A DNA stretch of 64,000 nucleotides from Terrimicrobium sacchariphilum (GCF_001613545.1 NZ_BDCO01000002.1:496001-560000); one strand, 5' to 3'. Shown: positions 7,799 through 40,940, counted from the first letter of the stretch. Program-made: numbers and translations. The notes: generated from the letters alone by a model not told the origin.

Positions 7799-8566
7799 AT
7801 GAAATTCGGAATTCTTGGAGCCATGCCGGAGGAGGTCGCGCTGATGGCGCGATCCATGACCGTGCATCACACGGTCGAGGCGGGCATGCGGACCTTTTAC
7901 GTCGGCGAGTGGGTCGGCCAGGAGGTCGTGCTCGTGCTTTCCCGCGTGGGCAAGGTTTCCGCCGCCGTGACGACGATGCTTCTGCTGGAGCGATTCGGCG
8001 TGGATCATGTGATTTTCACCGGAGTGGCCGGCGGCATTCATCCGAGCCTGCGCGTGGGCGATGTGGTGATCGGCGACCGGCTGGTGCAGCACGACATGGA
8101 CGCGAGTCCGCTGCCGGCTTTTGAGCGCTTCGAGATTCCGCTGCTGGGCAAGGTGTTCTTCGAGTCCGACCGGGAGATTTTATCCCGCGCGGTGGCGGCG
8201 GCGAAACGATACACGACCGAGTTTTTCCCGCAGGATGTCTCGGCGGAAAGCCGCGCAGCCTTTGGCATCGACACGCCCGCTGTGTACGACGGTCTTATCG
8301 CCAGCGGCGACCAGTTTCTCGCCGATCCCGAGGTGACGGCGGAACTCCGTGCCTCGCTCCCCGGCTTGCTCTGCGGCGAAATGGAAGGCGCTGCCGTCGC
8401 GCAGGTCTGTTATGAAATGGGAAACGTGCCCGCCACGGTGATCCGCGTCATTTCCGATCAGGCCGACCATTCGGCGGCGGTGGATTTCCTCCGCTTCGTC
8501 AACGAAGTCGCCGAGTATCTCACCGGCGGCATCGTGCGGGAATTGCTGGCGGGATATTCGAAATAA
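7799..8566 (+). CDS. mtnN: 5'-methylthioadenosine/S-adenosylhomocysteine nucleosidase
   Basis: Cleaves MTA and SAH to adenine plus a thioribosyl product, recycling SAM by-products; adenine may then be salvaged by Apt (encoded near 57.5 kb). The 255-residue protein begins MKFGILGAMPEEVALM, a near-invariant start in the family. It has GVAGGI in the nucleoside-binding strand, GEMEGAAVAQV with the ribose-binding Glu residues, and the catalytic Asp in SDQADHSA. The ATG at 7799 gives this start. It has a slightly longer central region than the E. coli enzyme (232 aa). Confidence 0.92.
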   Translation: MKFGILGAMPEEVALMARSMTVHHTVEAGMRTFYVGEWVGQEVVLVLSRVGKVSAAVTTMLLLERFGVDHVIFTGVAGGIHPSLRVGDVVIGDRLVQHDMDASPLPAFERFEIPLLGKVFFESDREILSRAVAAAKRYTTEFFPQDVSAESRAAFGIDTPAVYDGLIASGDQFLADPEVTAELRASLPGLLCGEMEGAAVAQVCYEMGNVPATVIRVISDQADHSAAVDFLRFVNEVAEYLTGGIVRELLAGYSK

Positions 8567-36802: not shown

Positions 36803-38122
36803 ATGCGTACGTTGGCGCGAGATTTATTTCAGAAATGCCGGGACTACAGGGATAGCGCCGACGCGAAAGCACAGGGCTTCTATCCGTATTTCCGCCAGAT
36901 CGACGAAACGCATGGCAATTACGTGATGTGCGACGGCGAGCGCAAGATCATGATCGGGTCGAACAACTATCTCGGCCTCGCTCAGGACGAGCGCGTGATC
37001 GAGGCGGCCTGTGAAGCCACTCGCGCCTATGGCGCCGGCTGTACCGGCTCCCGACTCCTGAACGGTACGATCCGCCTGCACTCCCAACTGGAAGAGGCGC
37101 TTGCCGATTTCCTCCAGCGCGAGGCTGTCCTTCTTTTTTCGACCGGATTTTTTGCGAACCAGGGAGCCCTGGCCTCACTGACCGAGGATGGAGACGTGAT
37201 CCTGTGCGACCGCGAGAATCACGCCAGCATCATCGATGGATGTCAGTTTGCGCCGGCCAAGCTGGTGCCTTATCGCCACAATTCCGCATCGTCCCTGGGC
37301 AATCGCCTGAAGCGTCAGGCTCCCGAGGCGGGCAAGCTCGTCGTGATGGACGGTGTCTTCAGCATGTCGGGCGACATTGCCGACCTGCCGCCTCAGCTCG
37401 AGGTGGCCAAGAGCTACGGCGCCCGCGTCTATGTCGACGAGGCCCACTCGCTCGGCGTGCTCGGCCCGAAGGGCCGCGGCGTGGTGCATCATTTTGGCCT
37501 CAATGACGATGTCGATATCGTCATGGGTACGTTCTCGAAATCGCTCGGTTCCATGGGCGGCTTCATCGCGGGTGACCGCCAGATGATCGAATTTCTCAAG
37601 CATCGTGCCCGGTGCCTGATCTTTACAGCCTCGCTCGCTCCCGCTGTCGCGGGCGGCGTGCTCAAGGCACTCGAGATCATGCAGCAGGAGCCCGAGCGCA
37701 TGGAGCAGCTCTGGCGCAACACGCACAAGATGCACGAGGGCTTCAAGCGCATCGGCTTCAAAATCGGCACCACCCAGACGCCCATCGTGCCGATCCTCAT
37801 CGGCAGCGAAGCCAAGGCGTTCATGTTTACGCAGCGCCTGTTTGAGGAAGGCGTCTTTGCCACTCCGGCGATTTACCCGGCGGTTCGCTACGGCGAGGCC
37901 ATCGTGCGCACGAGCTACATGGCGACCCATACGGACGACGACCTGGATCACGTCCTCGAGATCTTCGAGAAGCTGGCCAGGGAACTCGGTACCTTCGACG
38001 ATCCCGCCTACGTGGAACCCGGTCGCCGTCGCAATGTTTTCGACTTCCGTCTCGATGCCTCGGAAAACGGCTCGGAAGGAGCTGCCGAGGGGCAGAATGG
38101 ATACCATCAGGCCACCAAGTAG
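36803..38122 (+). CDS. spt: Serine palmitoyltransferase-like alpha-oxoamine synthase
   Basis: PLP enzyme of the alpha-oxoamine synthase family (SPT, AONS, KBL, ALAS), 439 aa. The PLP lysine is K246 in GTFSKSLGSMGGF. H140 in DRENHASIIDG stacks on the cofactor and D212 and H215 in VDEAHSLGVLG hold it. Bacterial serine palmitoyltransferase makes 3-ketosphinganine from serine and a long acyl thioester, the first sphingolipid step. The sequence alone does not separate SPT from AONS, but no biotin genes are near, and the next two genes match the bacterial ceramide pathway. The C-terminal 40 residues are an unusual Asn/Glu/Gly-rich tail. Starts at ATG 36803. Confidence 0.8.
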   Translation: MRTLARDLFQKCRDYRDSADAKAQGFYPYFRQIDETHGNYVMCDGERKIMIGSNNYLGLAQDERVIEAACEATRAYGAGCTGSRLLNGTIRLHSQLEEALADFLQREAVLLFSTGFFANQGALASLTEDGDVILCDRENHASIIDGCQFAPAKLVPYRHNSASSLGNRLKRQAPEAGKLVVMDGVFSMSGDIADLPPQLEVAKSYGARVYVDEAHSLGVLGPKGRGVVHHFGLNDDVDIVMGTFSKSLGSMGGFIAGDRQMIEFLKHRARCLIFTASLAPAVAGGVLKALEIMQQEPERMEQLWRNTHKMHEGFKRIGFKIGTTQTPIVPILIGSEAKAFMFTQRLFEEGVFATPAIYPAVRYGEAIVRTSYMATHTDDDLDHVLEIFEKLARELGTFDDPAYVEPGRRRNVFDFRLDASENGSEGAAEGQNGYHQATK

Positions 38123-38140
38123 ACTCTTTTCGTCAGGTAC

Positions 38141-39274
38141 ATGTCGGGGAGCATAGAGATCGTTCCATGTCATACGGGCAGGGAGCGGCAGGCTTTTGAA
38201 GATGTCGCGGAACTGCTCCAGGGGGAGAACCCGGCTTTCGTTCCGCCTTTTCCCGGCAGCATCGCCAAGTACCTTTCGGAAAAATCCGCCTTCTGCAAAC
38301 GCCACGGCGAGATCATTCCTTTCATCGCGCGACGCGACGGCAAGCCGGTCGGGCGCATTGCGGCGATCATCAATCGTTCGCACAACGCGTATTACAAAGA
38401 CCGCACGGGGTTCTTTGGGTTCTTCGAGTGCGAGAATAATCTCTCCACCGCGACGGAGCTCTTTAGAAAAGTCGATTCTGTCCTGCGCGAGCGGGGCTGC
38501 GACTCCGTGCGCGGCCCGTACAACCCGAGCATCAATGATGAGTGCGGGTTGCTGGTCGAGGGCTTCGACGTGCCACCCTTCATCGGCCTGACGTGGAATC
38601 CCGCCTACTACGAGGCTCTCGTGAGAGATGCCGGCTACGATTCCGTGCGCGCATCGCTCGGGTTTCACCTTCCGCTGGCCAAGCTCGAGGTGCCCGCGCG
38701 ACTCAGCAAGATTGTCGACCGCCTCACCCGGCGCTCGCGCCTCAAGCTCCGCCCCATCCGGCTCAAGGAGCTCGAGGAGGAGCTCAAGATCGTGCTGGAG
38801 GTTTACAACTCCACGCTAGAGCGCAACTGGGGCTTTGTCCCCATCTCGATGGATGACCTGCTTTTTGCCGCCGACGATCTCCGGGCCATCGCTGATCCGG
38901 AGATGATCCTCATCGCCGAGCATGATGGGGAGAATGCCGGAGTCGGCCTTTCGTTGCCAAACATCAACGAGGTCCTCATCCAGCTCAAGAAGACCCCACG
39001 CTGGCTGCGCCCGCTCCATTTCCTCTGGCTTCTGAAGACCCGGCCGATTCGCACGGGTCGCCAGGTGGTCTACGGCATCTCACCGCGCTTCCGCGACAAG
39101 ACCGGCCTGCATGGGTGGCTGCTGCGTGAGCAGTTTGCCTGCGCCAAGGCCCGCTACACGCATGCCGAGCTCGGCTGGATCGAGGAAAACAATACCGAGA
39201 TCATCGAAAACTCCCTCATGCTCGGGGGGATTCCGCATCGCAAGTGGCGGATTTTTGAAAAGTCCCTCGGATGA
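38141..39274 (+). CDS. Putative bacterial ceramide synthase (GNAT-fold protein)
   Basis: A 377-residue cytoplasmic protein often annotated as YghO-like or GNAT. Motifs FVPPFPGSIAKYL, RRDGKPVGRIAAIIN, YYKDRTGFFGFFE and NPSINDECGLLVEGFD match this family. GYDSVRASLGFHLPL and ELGWIEENNTEIIENSLMLGG belong to an acyltransferase-type core. In Caulobacter, bCerS, which acylates the free amine of the long-chain base, belongs to this kind of protein. The identification rests on neighbourhood: it is 18 bp after the SPT-like gene and overlaps the reductase gene by 4 bp. The true acyl donor and exact function are not shown. Confidence 0.65.
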   Translation: MSGSIEIVPCHTGRERQAFEDVAELLQGENPAFVPPFPGSIAKYLSEKSAFCKRHGEIIPFIARRDGKPVGRIAAIINRSHNAYYKDRTGFFGFFECENNLSTATELFRKVDSVLRERGCDSVRGPYNPSINDECGLLVEGFDVPPFIGLTWNPAYYEALVRDAGYDSVRASLGFHLPLAKLEVPARLSKIVDRLTRRSRLKLRPIRLKELEEELKIVLEVYNSTLERNWGFVPISMDDLLFAADDLRAIADPEMILIAEHDGENAGVGLSLPNINEVLIQLKKTPRWLRPLHFLWLLKTRPIRTGRQVVYGISPRFRDKTGLHGWLLREQFACAKARYTHAELGWIEENNTEIIENSLMLGGIPHRKWRIFEKSLG

Positions 39275-40242
39275 ACCTCCTGCTGACAGGAGCGACGGGC
39301 TTTGTCGGTCGCAACGCCCTGTTGCGCGCGCTCCCGGGTTACGGGACGGTTTTCGCCCCCGTTCGCTCCGAGGCCAAGCTGCGGAGCCAGTTGAGCGGCG
39401 AGGGAGTCGCGGGGGAAAATGTCGTCGCTCTCGGGGCAGATCCTGCGACGTGGGGAGGGGCCATGCCCGACCATGCGATTCTCGGGGCGGGAGTGCTCTT
39501 TGCCCGCGACCGGCAGGAATATTTTGAGACCAATGTCGACTGGAAGCTGCGCGTCATCGAGGCGTTGCCAGAAACGTGTCGGATCGTCGTTCTGTCCTCG
39601 CAATCCGCGGGGGGACCGACGCCGGCAGGCCGCGCTGCACGCGGCGAGGACGATGCCGATTCTCCGATCACGTGGTATGGCGAGTCCAAGCTCGCGATGG
39701 AGCGGGCGATCCGGGAGAGATTCCCGCATCGTCCGATCATCATCCTGCGTCCGCCGATGATTCTCGGCCCGCGCGACCAGGCGACGCTCCCGCTTTTCAA
39801 GATGGGCGAGGGGCTGGTGCGCCTGAAACCCGCGTGGCACACGAAGAGCTACAGCTTCATCGCCGTGCAGGATCTGGTGGAGGCCATCTTTCTCGCGCTG
39901 GCGGCGGGTTCGCTGCCGGATCGCAGCCTGTATGTGGCTGCTCCCGAGCCGATCACGGACTGGCAGTTGATCGCCTCCGCCGTGCTGCCGGGCAAGGTCG
40001 GGCTGACATTGCCTGTTCCGCAGCCCGCAGTCCGCCTGCTCTCCGCCGTGGTCGACGCGGTGCCTGCCTTGCGAGCACAGACTCCGAGCCTCACGCGGGA
40101 TCGCGCGCGGGAGATCTGGCCGCCCCGCTGGGTGGTCGATGGCGGTCGCTTTGCCCGATGGTCGGGCTGGTCGGCGAAGCGCGGACTGGTCGAGACGATG
40201 CGGGAGACGGCGGATTTTTACCGGCGTACCGGCCAACTGTGA
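39271..40242 (+). CDS. NAD(P)-dependent reductase, CerR-like
   Basis: An extended SDR of 323 aa with TGATGFVG at residues 6-13, SSQSAGG, the catalytic Tyr136 and Lys140 in YGESKLAME, and LRPPMILGPRD, which together resemble sterol/ceramide-type NAD(P)H-dependent epimerases. In the Caulobacter ceramide pathway CerR reduces the keto group after acylation. Given the position behind the SPT and bCerS candidates, this is the natural role. A generic sugar-nucleotide or steroid-dehydrogenase role is an alternative. Overlaps upstream by ATGA and downstream by GTGA. Confidence 0.68.
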   Translation: MNLLLTGATGFVGRNALLRALPGYGTVFAPVRSEAKLRSQLSGEGVAGENVVALGADPATWGGAMPDHAILGAGVLFARDRQEYFETNVDWKLRVIEALPETCRIVVLSSQSAGGPTPAGRAARGEDDADSPITWYGESKLAMERAIRERFPHRPIIILRPPMILGPRDQATLPLFKMGEGLVRLKPAWHTKSYSFIAVQDLVEAIFLALAAGSLPDRSLYVAAPEPITDWQLIASAVLPGKVGLTLPVPQPAVRLLSAVVDAVPALRAQTPSLTRDRAREIWPPRWVVDGGRFARWSGWSAKRGLVETMRETADFYRRTGQL

Positions 40243-40940
40243 AAAGGCTGCTGGTTGTCGCTGCGTTCCTTGGGGCTCTCGCGTTTGGAACGTGGTGGCT
40301 CCTGCGCCAGCAACGATCCGCCGCCGTCCTCCCGCCCAAGCCGCGTACCCTGGCTGACGCCCTCCAGGCCATCGAGCCGACGGCGGGGCCTCGCGTGCGG
40401 GCCTTTTGCAAAAGGGCTGGCGTGGCCTATCCGCCCGAGCGGCTGATTTTCATCGCGAATAAAAAGGAACGGCGCATCGACCTCCTTGTGGCTCAGGAGG
40501 GAAGGTATCGCCTCGTCCACTCATGGCCCGTCCTCGCCGCCAGCGGCGGACCGGGTCCAAAGCTCCGCGAGGGCGACCGGCAGGTGCCGGAGGGGTTTTA
40601 TCGCTTTGAGCTTCTCAACCCCAACAGCAGCTTCCATCTCTCCCTCCGCGTCAATTACCCCAATCCCGAGGACATCCGGCGCGGCGCGGGAGAAGGGATT
40701 ACTCCCGCCGAACTCGGCAGCGACATCATGATTCATGGCGGTGCGGTCTCCATCGGCTGCCTCGCCGTCGGCGATCCGGCCGTTGAGGAAATCTTCCTCC
40801 TCGTCGCAAGGACGGGCCTCGACCATGCGGAACTCCTCATCCTCCCCGACGAAAGACTCACTGTCATGGACGACCGCCCGTGGGTGAACGACCTTTACGC
40901 CCGCCTCCGGGAACGCATGGGCGAGCTTGATCGGCGTTGA
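40239..40940 (+). CDS. L,D-transpeptidase (YkuD/YafK-type)
   Basis: A 233-residue periplasmic enzyme that cross-links peptidoglycan or attaches proteins to it. An N-terminal hydrophobic anchor lies at residues 3-22. The catalytic domain has IHGGAVSIGCLAV with catalytic His166 and Cys174 (H-x7-C), the YkuD signature; the segment LREGDRQVPEGFYRFELLNPNS is typical of the YafK/ErfK-like subfamily. The GTG at 40239 lies in the stop codon of the reductase gene, so it is cotranslated with the sphingolipid-type genes. Confidence 0.85.
   Translation: MKRLLVVAAFLGALAFGTWWLLRQQRSAAVLPPKPRTLADALQAIEPTAGPRVRAFCKRAGVAYPPERLIFIANKKERRIDLLVAQEGRYRLVHSWPVLAASGGPGPKLREGDRQVPEGFYRFELLNPNSSFHLSLRVNYPNPEDIRRGAGEGITPAELGSDIMIHGGAVSIGCLAVGDPAVEEIFLLVARTGLDHAELLILPDERLTVMDDRPWVNDLYARLRERMGELDRR

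Follow-up and report, generated by a model that had tools for sequence, protein, structure and literature searches.

The window, a stretch of 64,000 nucleotides from the genome of Terrimicrobium sacchariphilum, contains three consecutive genes, spt, bcerS and cerR, which very probably constitute an operon dedicated to the synthesis of the ceramide backbone. In the pathway that we propose, serine palmitoyltransferase (SPT) would form a 3-keto-sphingoid base from a long-chain acyl-CoA and an L-amino acid, for which serine is the most likely candidate, the tandem-GNAT acyltransferase bCerS would N-acylate this base, and CerR would then reduce the 3-keto group, resulting in dihydroceramide. The gene order in the operon is identical to the reaction order proposed for Caulobacter, in which acylation takes place before reduction.

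The three open reading frames were found on the plus strand exactly at the coordinates given in the first-pass annotation, including the gap between the first two genes and the 4-bp overlap between the last two (Table 1). The spt gene ends with the stop codon TAG at 38122 and bcerS starts with ATG at 38141, whereas the sequence ATGA at 39271-39274 is common to the bcerS stop and the cerR start. The encoded proteins are 93-99% identical in two genomes of the same genus and are conserved throughout the family as well, and the frames therefore represent real genes and not chance ORFs. A possible fourth gene, encoding a YkuD-type L,D-transpeptidase-like protein, starts with GTG and shares the 4 bp GTGA with the cerR stop; its match to PF03734 (23.7 bits) is only marginally above the cut-off of 23.4 bits. 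This gene is retained 3' of cerR in the two genomes of the same genus and in G009, a genome of the same family. As already stated in the annotation, no dedicated ACP gene adjoins the cluster: the genome contains four PP-binding matches, all of them distant. Likewise, no acpR or aasR genes are adjacent to the cluster, and promoter and terminator scans yielded nothing useful.

Table 1. Features of the putative ceramide operon, positions counted from the first nucleotide of the window.
Feature	Position	Strand	Remarks
spt (alpha-oxoamine synthase, SPT side of the family)	36803..38122	+	439 aa, PLP lysine K246
bcerS (tandem-GNAT N-acyltransferase, YghO/bacterial ceramide synthase family)	38141..39274	+	377 aa
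cerR (extended short-chain dehydrogenase/reductase)	39271..40242	+	323 aa, Y136/K140
spt-bcerS gap	38123..38140		18 bp between spt stop and bcerS start
SPT C-terminal tail (FDFRL...GQNGYHQATK)	38039..38119	+	homologous stretch overlapped by bcerS in most relatives, not here
Possible fourth operon gene, YkuD-type L,D-transpeptidase-like	40239..40940	+	N-terminal hydrophobic segment; PF03734

The first protein is an alpha-oxoamine synthase (AOS) in which the SPT catalytic residues K246, H140, D212 and H215 are invariant with 9/9 close SPT homologues, in agreement with the first-pass annotation. The best NCBIfam model is that of the Bacteroidota SPT, NF047600, with 494 bits against a cut-off of 640 bits, and two other SPT models, NF047599 and NF047603, gave 403 (cut-off 500) and 337 bits (cut-off 670), respectively. 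As none of these three curated cut-offs is passed, the protein is filed as SPT-like. Among the solved structures the Sphingobacterium SPT (3a2b/8guh) is the best match with 403 bits, followed by a Thermus AOS (about 307 bits) and the Sphingomonas SPTs (near 290-299 bits). With Bacteroidota SPTs as the nearest relatives of solved structure, and with neither acpR nor aasR next to the cluster, acyl-CoA rather than a special ACP would serve as the acyl donor.

BioF and Kbl belong to the same enzyme superfamily, and the protein reaches 388 bits with the bioF model (cut-off 426) and 381 bits with the glycine C-acetyltransferase model, so that a BioF or Kbl enzyme located beside unrelated genes by chance is a conceivable alternative. 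In the phylogenetic tree, 48 SPT-type rows, including the crystallised Sphingobacterium and Sphingomonas SPTs and the window's protein, are split from BioF, Kbl and the Thermus AOS with a support of 100/99, where six rows are of the BioF/Kbl type and one of these is the BioF of the window's own genome. This BioF is the other AOS of the genome, is encoded elsewhere and, with 447 bits, clears the threshold of 426 bits of the bioF model. The grouping with BioF or Kbl named in the first-pass annotation as a refuting outcome thus did not occur, and in view of the tree, the separate BioF and the linkage to bCerS across many phyla this alternative was rejected as barely credible.

The amino acid substrate is less tightly defined. 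The clade of the window's SPT, which comprises Spartobacteria and other Verrucomicrobiota as well as bins labelled Bdellovibrionota, Myxococcota and Pseudomonadota, branches outside the characterised SPTs (support 83/90), as their sister and not nested among them; the phylogeny therefore leaves the amino acid specificity unfixed. Of 26 diagnostic columns that set the solved SPTs, which agree there, apart from BioF/Kbl, the protein has the SPT residue in 12, among them G52, L86-N87, T114, S247, F254, A276 and S371, and a BioF/Kbl residue in 7. The operon could follow the same pathway logic with alanine, glycine or cysteate and produce 1-deoxyceramides or sulfonolipids, which would be compatible with the position of the clade and with the Black Sea work (PMC11334938), according to which Spt can use alanine and the use of other amino acids is hypothesised. 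On the other hand, the SPT-type motif residues are retained, and a solved cysteate acyltransferase scores only 236 bits compared to 403 bits for the Sphingobacterium SPT. We therefore regard another amino acid as unlikely and serine as the most likely substrate.

For the second protein alone no Pfam match was obtained; however, GNAT (PF00583) is matched by 47 of 58 members of the BcerS family. The AlphaFold2 model has a pLDDT of 93.4 and its best folds in the PDB are tandem GNATs. The bCerS family profile finds E. coli YghO with 296 bits, together with homologues from Klebsiella, Roseomonas and Rubrobacter, and BcerS and YghO share 28.6% identity across 99% of the query. The protein is a tandem-GNAT member of the YghO/bCerS family and would N-acylate the sphingoid base. 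A second bCerS paralogue (52% identical) is present in the same genome on contig 3 (G000:C3:745507-746616; L035:8478-9635), where it is unlinked to spt and lies near genes resembling an arsenic-resistance set. In the bCerS tree this paralogue is placed together with the operon copy of G032, a genome of another family (support 100), which suggests that it originates from transfer or from an ancient duplication.

The third protein is an extended SDR with Y136, K140 and an N-terminal TGATGFVG motif, all of them conserved in the CerR alignments. Its model (pLDDT 95.5) matches the folds of extended SDRs, including the respiratory-complex chain 9f5x_P. With a test profile built solely from bCerS-linked SDRs of other phyla, CerR scored 186 bits, compared to 112 bits for another SDR in the window and 48 bits for E. 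coli rfaD; in a tree, the separation from generic SDRs was weak (support 52). The Rossmann strand and motif begin at residue 2 and therefore leave no room for a signal peptide, which differs from Caulobacter, where CerR is reported to be periplasmic with an unexplained source of electrons (PMC11087976). The assignment of proteins 2 and 3 as bCerS and CerR, respectively, is supported by their profiles and folds, by the neighbouring genes and by their joint occurrence.

The three genes are inherited together. Among 39 genomes of the order, strong matches to spt, bcerS and cerR occur jointly in families f1, f2 and f9 and are all missing from seven other families; most gaps in f1 fall in incomplete genomes, and a further family, f8, has divergent versions. 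A bCerS-type match (E <= 0.001) was detected in 37 of 289 Verrucomicrobiota genomes, and the trait is thus patchy in the phylum. For 10 of the 17 strongest bCerS genomes a CerR-type match reached E <= 1e-40, and the genomes of f8 and f16 are without one. In 80 loci taken from named genome records, spt lies directly 5' of bcerS in 52 and all three genes are collinear in 31, numbers which are no measure of prevalence as the sample was seeded by the window's family. The collinear records are labelled Verrucomicrobiota, Myxococcota, Bdellovibrionota, Pseudomonadota, Gemmatimonadota and Acidobacteriota, where the taxon labels are uncertain because the records are MAGs. In several genera of the window's own family cerR is located apart from spt-bcerS.

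Different arrangements were observed at other bCerS loci. In G031, a genome of the same order (family f8), L037:5465-14956 contains a different, eukaryote-like sphingolipid cluster with a Lipid_DES delta4-desaturase, a fatty acid hydroxylase, an oxoamine synthase, two CDP-alcohol phosphotransferases, bCerS, a nucleotidyltransferase and a classical SDR. In the f16 Verrucomicrobiota (L061, L063-L065) bCerS adjoins an oxoamine synthase outside the main SPT clade and no CerR-type gene was found; these loci possibly encode a distinct lipid pathway that is akin to ceramide synthesis.

Genes for head groups or transport do not adjoin the window's operon and protein 2 has a broad family tree, both of which would be in line with an operon for a different N-acylated amino-ketone or amino-alcohol lipid, e.g., a signal molecule, with no role in ceramide synthesis. 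We consider this quite improbable, since the same three classes form the genetically defined core ceramide set in Caulobacter (PMC11324152, PMC11087976) and our profiles recover SPT, CerR and YghO at the E. coli yghO locus, where the AOS passes the SPT cut-off. Dihydroceramide synthesis is the reading that we follow here.

In most relatives the first two genes are not separated by a gap. In 16 of the 19 loci of the window's family with both genes paired, and in most other close relatives as well, spt remains open into bcerS and stops only 31-127 bp past the first residue of bcerS that is conserved; in most relatives the overlap, which is read in a different frame, amounts to about 100-146 bp. 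Where the bcerS start is unambiguous (as in L096, L097, L100 and L101), the overlap is 146 bp, counted from the single start codon in frame to the stop codon of spt. At fourfold-degenerate sites of the bcerS codons, divergence is 0.272 in the overlapped part and 0.614 in the rest of the gene (15 loci, Mann-Whitney p ~1e-6), and in two other groups 0.341 vs 0.667 (p ~1e-4) and 0.144 vs 0.413 (p 0.007), all of these p-values being optimistic because the rows are related. In the two groups with the longest overlap the divergence rises at the spt stop, from 0.259 to 0.577 and from 0.364 (few sites) to 0.732, respectively; in the group with a 43-bp overlap the step is blunter. Overlaps with suppressed fourfold-site divergence are located in L083-L101, L103-L105 and L107-L118 (for example in L084 around 8000-8104).

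No depression of fourfold-site divergence was detected in four control sets, namely cerR starts, spt starts, non-overlapping bcerS genes and solo paralogues, and an effect of codon usage at the 5' end as its cause is ruled out by these controls. The low divergence within the overlap, its rise at the spt stop and its absence from the controls indicate that the DNA is probably dual-coding, and translation of both frames is the simplest reading of these sequence comparisons, although an RNA element may also account for the low divergence.

In the window's genus spt and bcerS do not overlap, and the 18-bp gap is probably a derived state of this genus. In G009 (G009:C379, L036:7688-9995) two tandem bcerS copies of separate lineages lie between spt and cerR. 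The window's copy is the partner of one of them (support 89), while the second clusters with the spt-overlapping copies of other genera of the family (98). Loss of the first of two such tandem copies would explain both the gap and the long C-terminal tail of the window's SPT. We are reasonably confident that most relatives have a conserved dual-coding overlap of ~100-146 bp, in which both frames are under selection and by which steps one and two of ceramide synthesis are coupled. This overlap would extend over the Spartobacteria and the bins labelled Bdellovibrionota, Myxococcota and Pseudomonadota, in a shorter form over a third clade, of Verrucomicrobiota, and would have been lost secondarily in the window's genus, possibly after a tandem duplication of bcerS, with the old overlap left behind as the SPT tail. 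A literature search for the spt/bcerS overlap found no report, and the long overlap looks new.

The ceramide genes of Caulobacter and the Rhodobacteria are spt, cerS/bCerS, cerR, acpR and aasR (CC_1164 and CC_1154 among them); the core enzyme classes are the same and are also recovered at the equivalent yghO locus of E. coli, which together with Klebsiella and Roseomonas plasmids served as Rhodobacterial reference. In difference to these systems, acpR and aasR do not adjoin the window's cluster and its SPT is closer to the Bacteroidota type by score, with the Sphingobacterium enzyme and NF047600 as top structural and family matches, while it differs from Bacteroidota SPTs by its score below the family cut-off, its extra C-terminal tail and its separate clade. 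For Bacteroidota it is reported in the Black Sea study (PMC11334938) that the three genes are not close together. The same study describes Spt-like genes from MAGs that represent 38 phyla, 22 of these MAGs being Verrucomicrobiota, and refers to Spt, bCerS and CerR as 'often found clustered'; a ceramide pathway in the phylum is therefore not new. Those sets share with the window the phylum, the gene combination and the mode of inference, but they are MAGs from the Black Sea, and the part of the study drawn on here gives no description of operon anatomy, overlap or paralogues.

On plasmid 1 of Rubrobacter radiotolerans, genes for an AOS, a bCerS-like protein and an SDR follow each other as in the window, all on the same strand, with an 8-bp overlap between the first two genes; in contrast to the window's set it is plasmid-borne and belongs to the Actinomycetota, and its AOS is 48.7% identical. 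This set (L172:5923-9290) lies near a type I-D CRISPR locus. The compactness that the first-pass annotation had emphasised thus stands as a difference to the layout in Caulobacter and the Rhodobacteria, but it is less special than assumed there, as the same order is found in other phyla and on the Rubrobacter plasmid. Outside the Rhodobacteria, the window's operon and the collinear loci contradict a published rule on ceramide gene arrangement; the paper stating this rule reports that Rhodobacterial SPTs prefer a dedicated acyl-AcpR made by AasR and that Bacteroidetes SPTs use acyl-CoA.

That bcerS (cerS) is locked in one operon with spt and cerR bears on the idea that cerS is transcribed separately for salvage. 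The cytoplasmic-looking CerR offers a route to study the site of ketone reduction and the electron donor involved, and with the operon a minimal set of three genes is available with which bacterial ceramide synthesis could be tested in a laboratory host. If it is dual-coding, the overlap of the relatives would rank among the rare long dual-coding regions of bacteria that are well conserved, and translational coupling within a lipid pathway could be tested on it.
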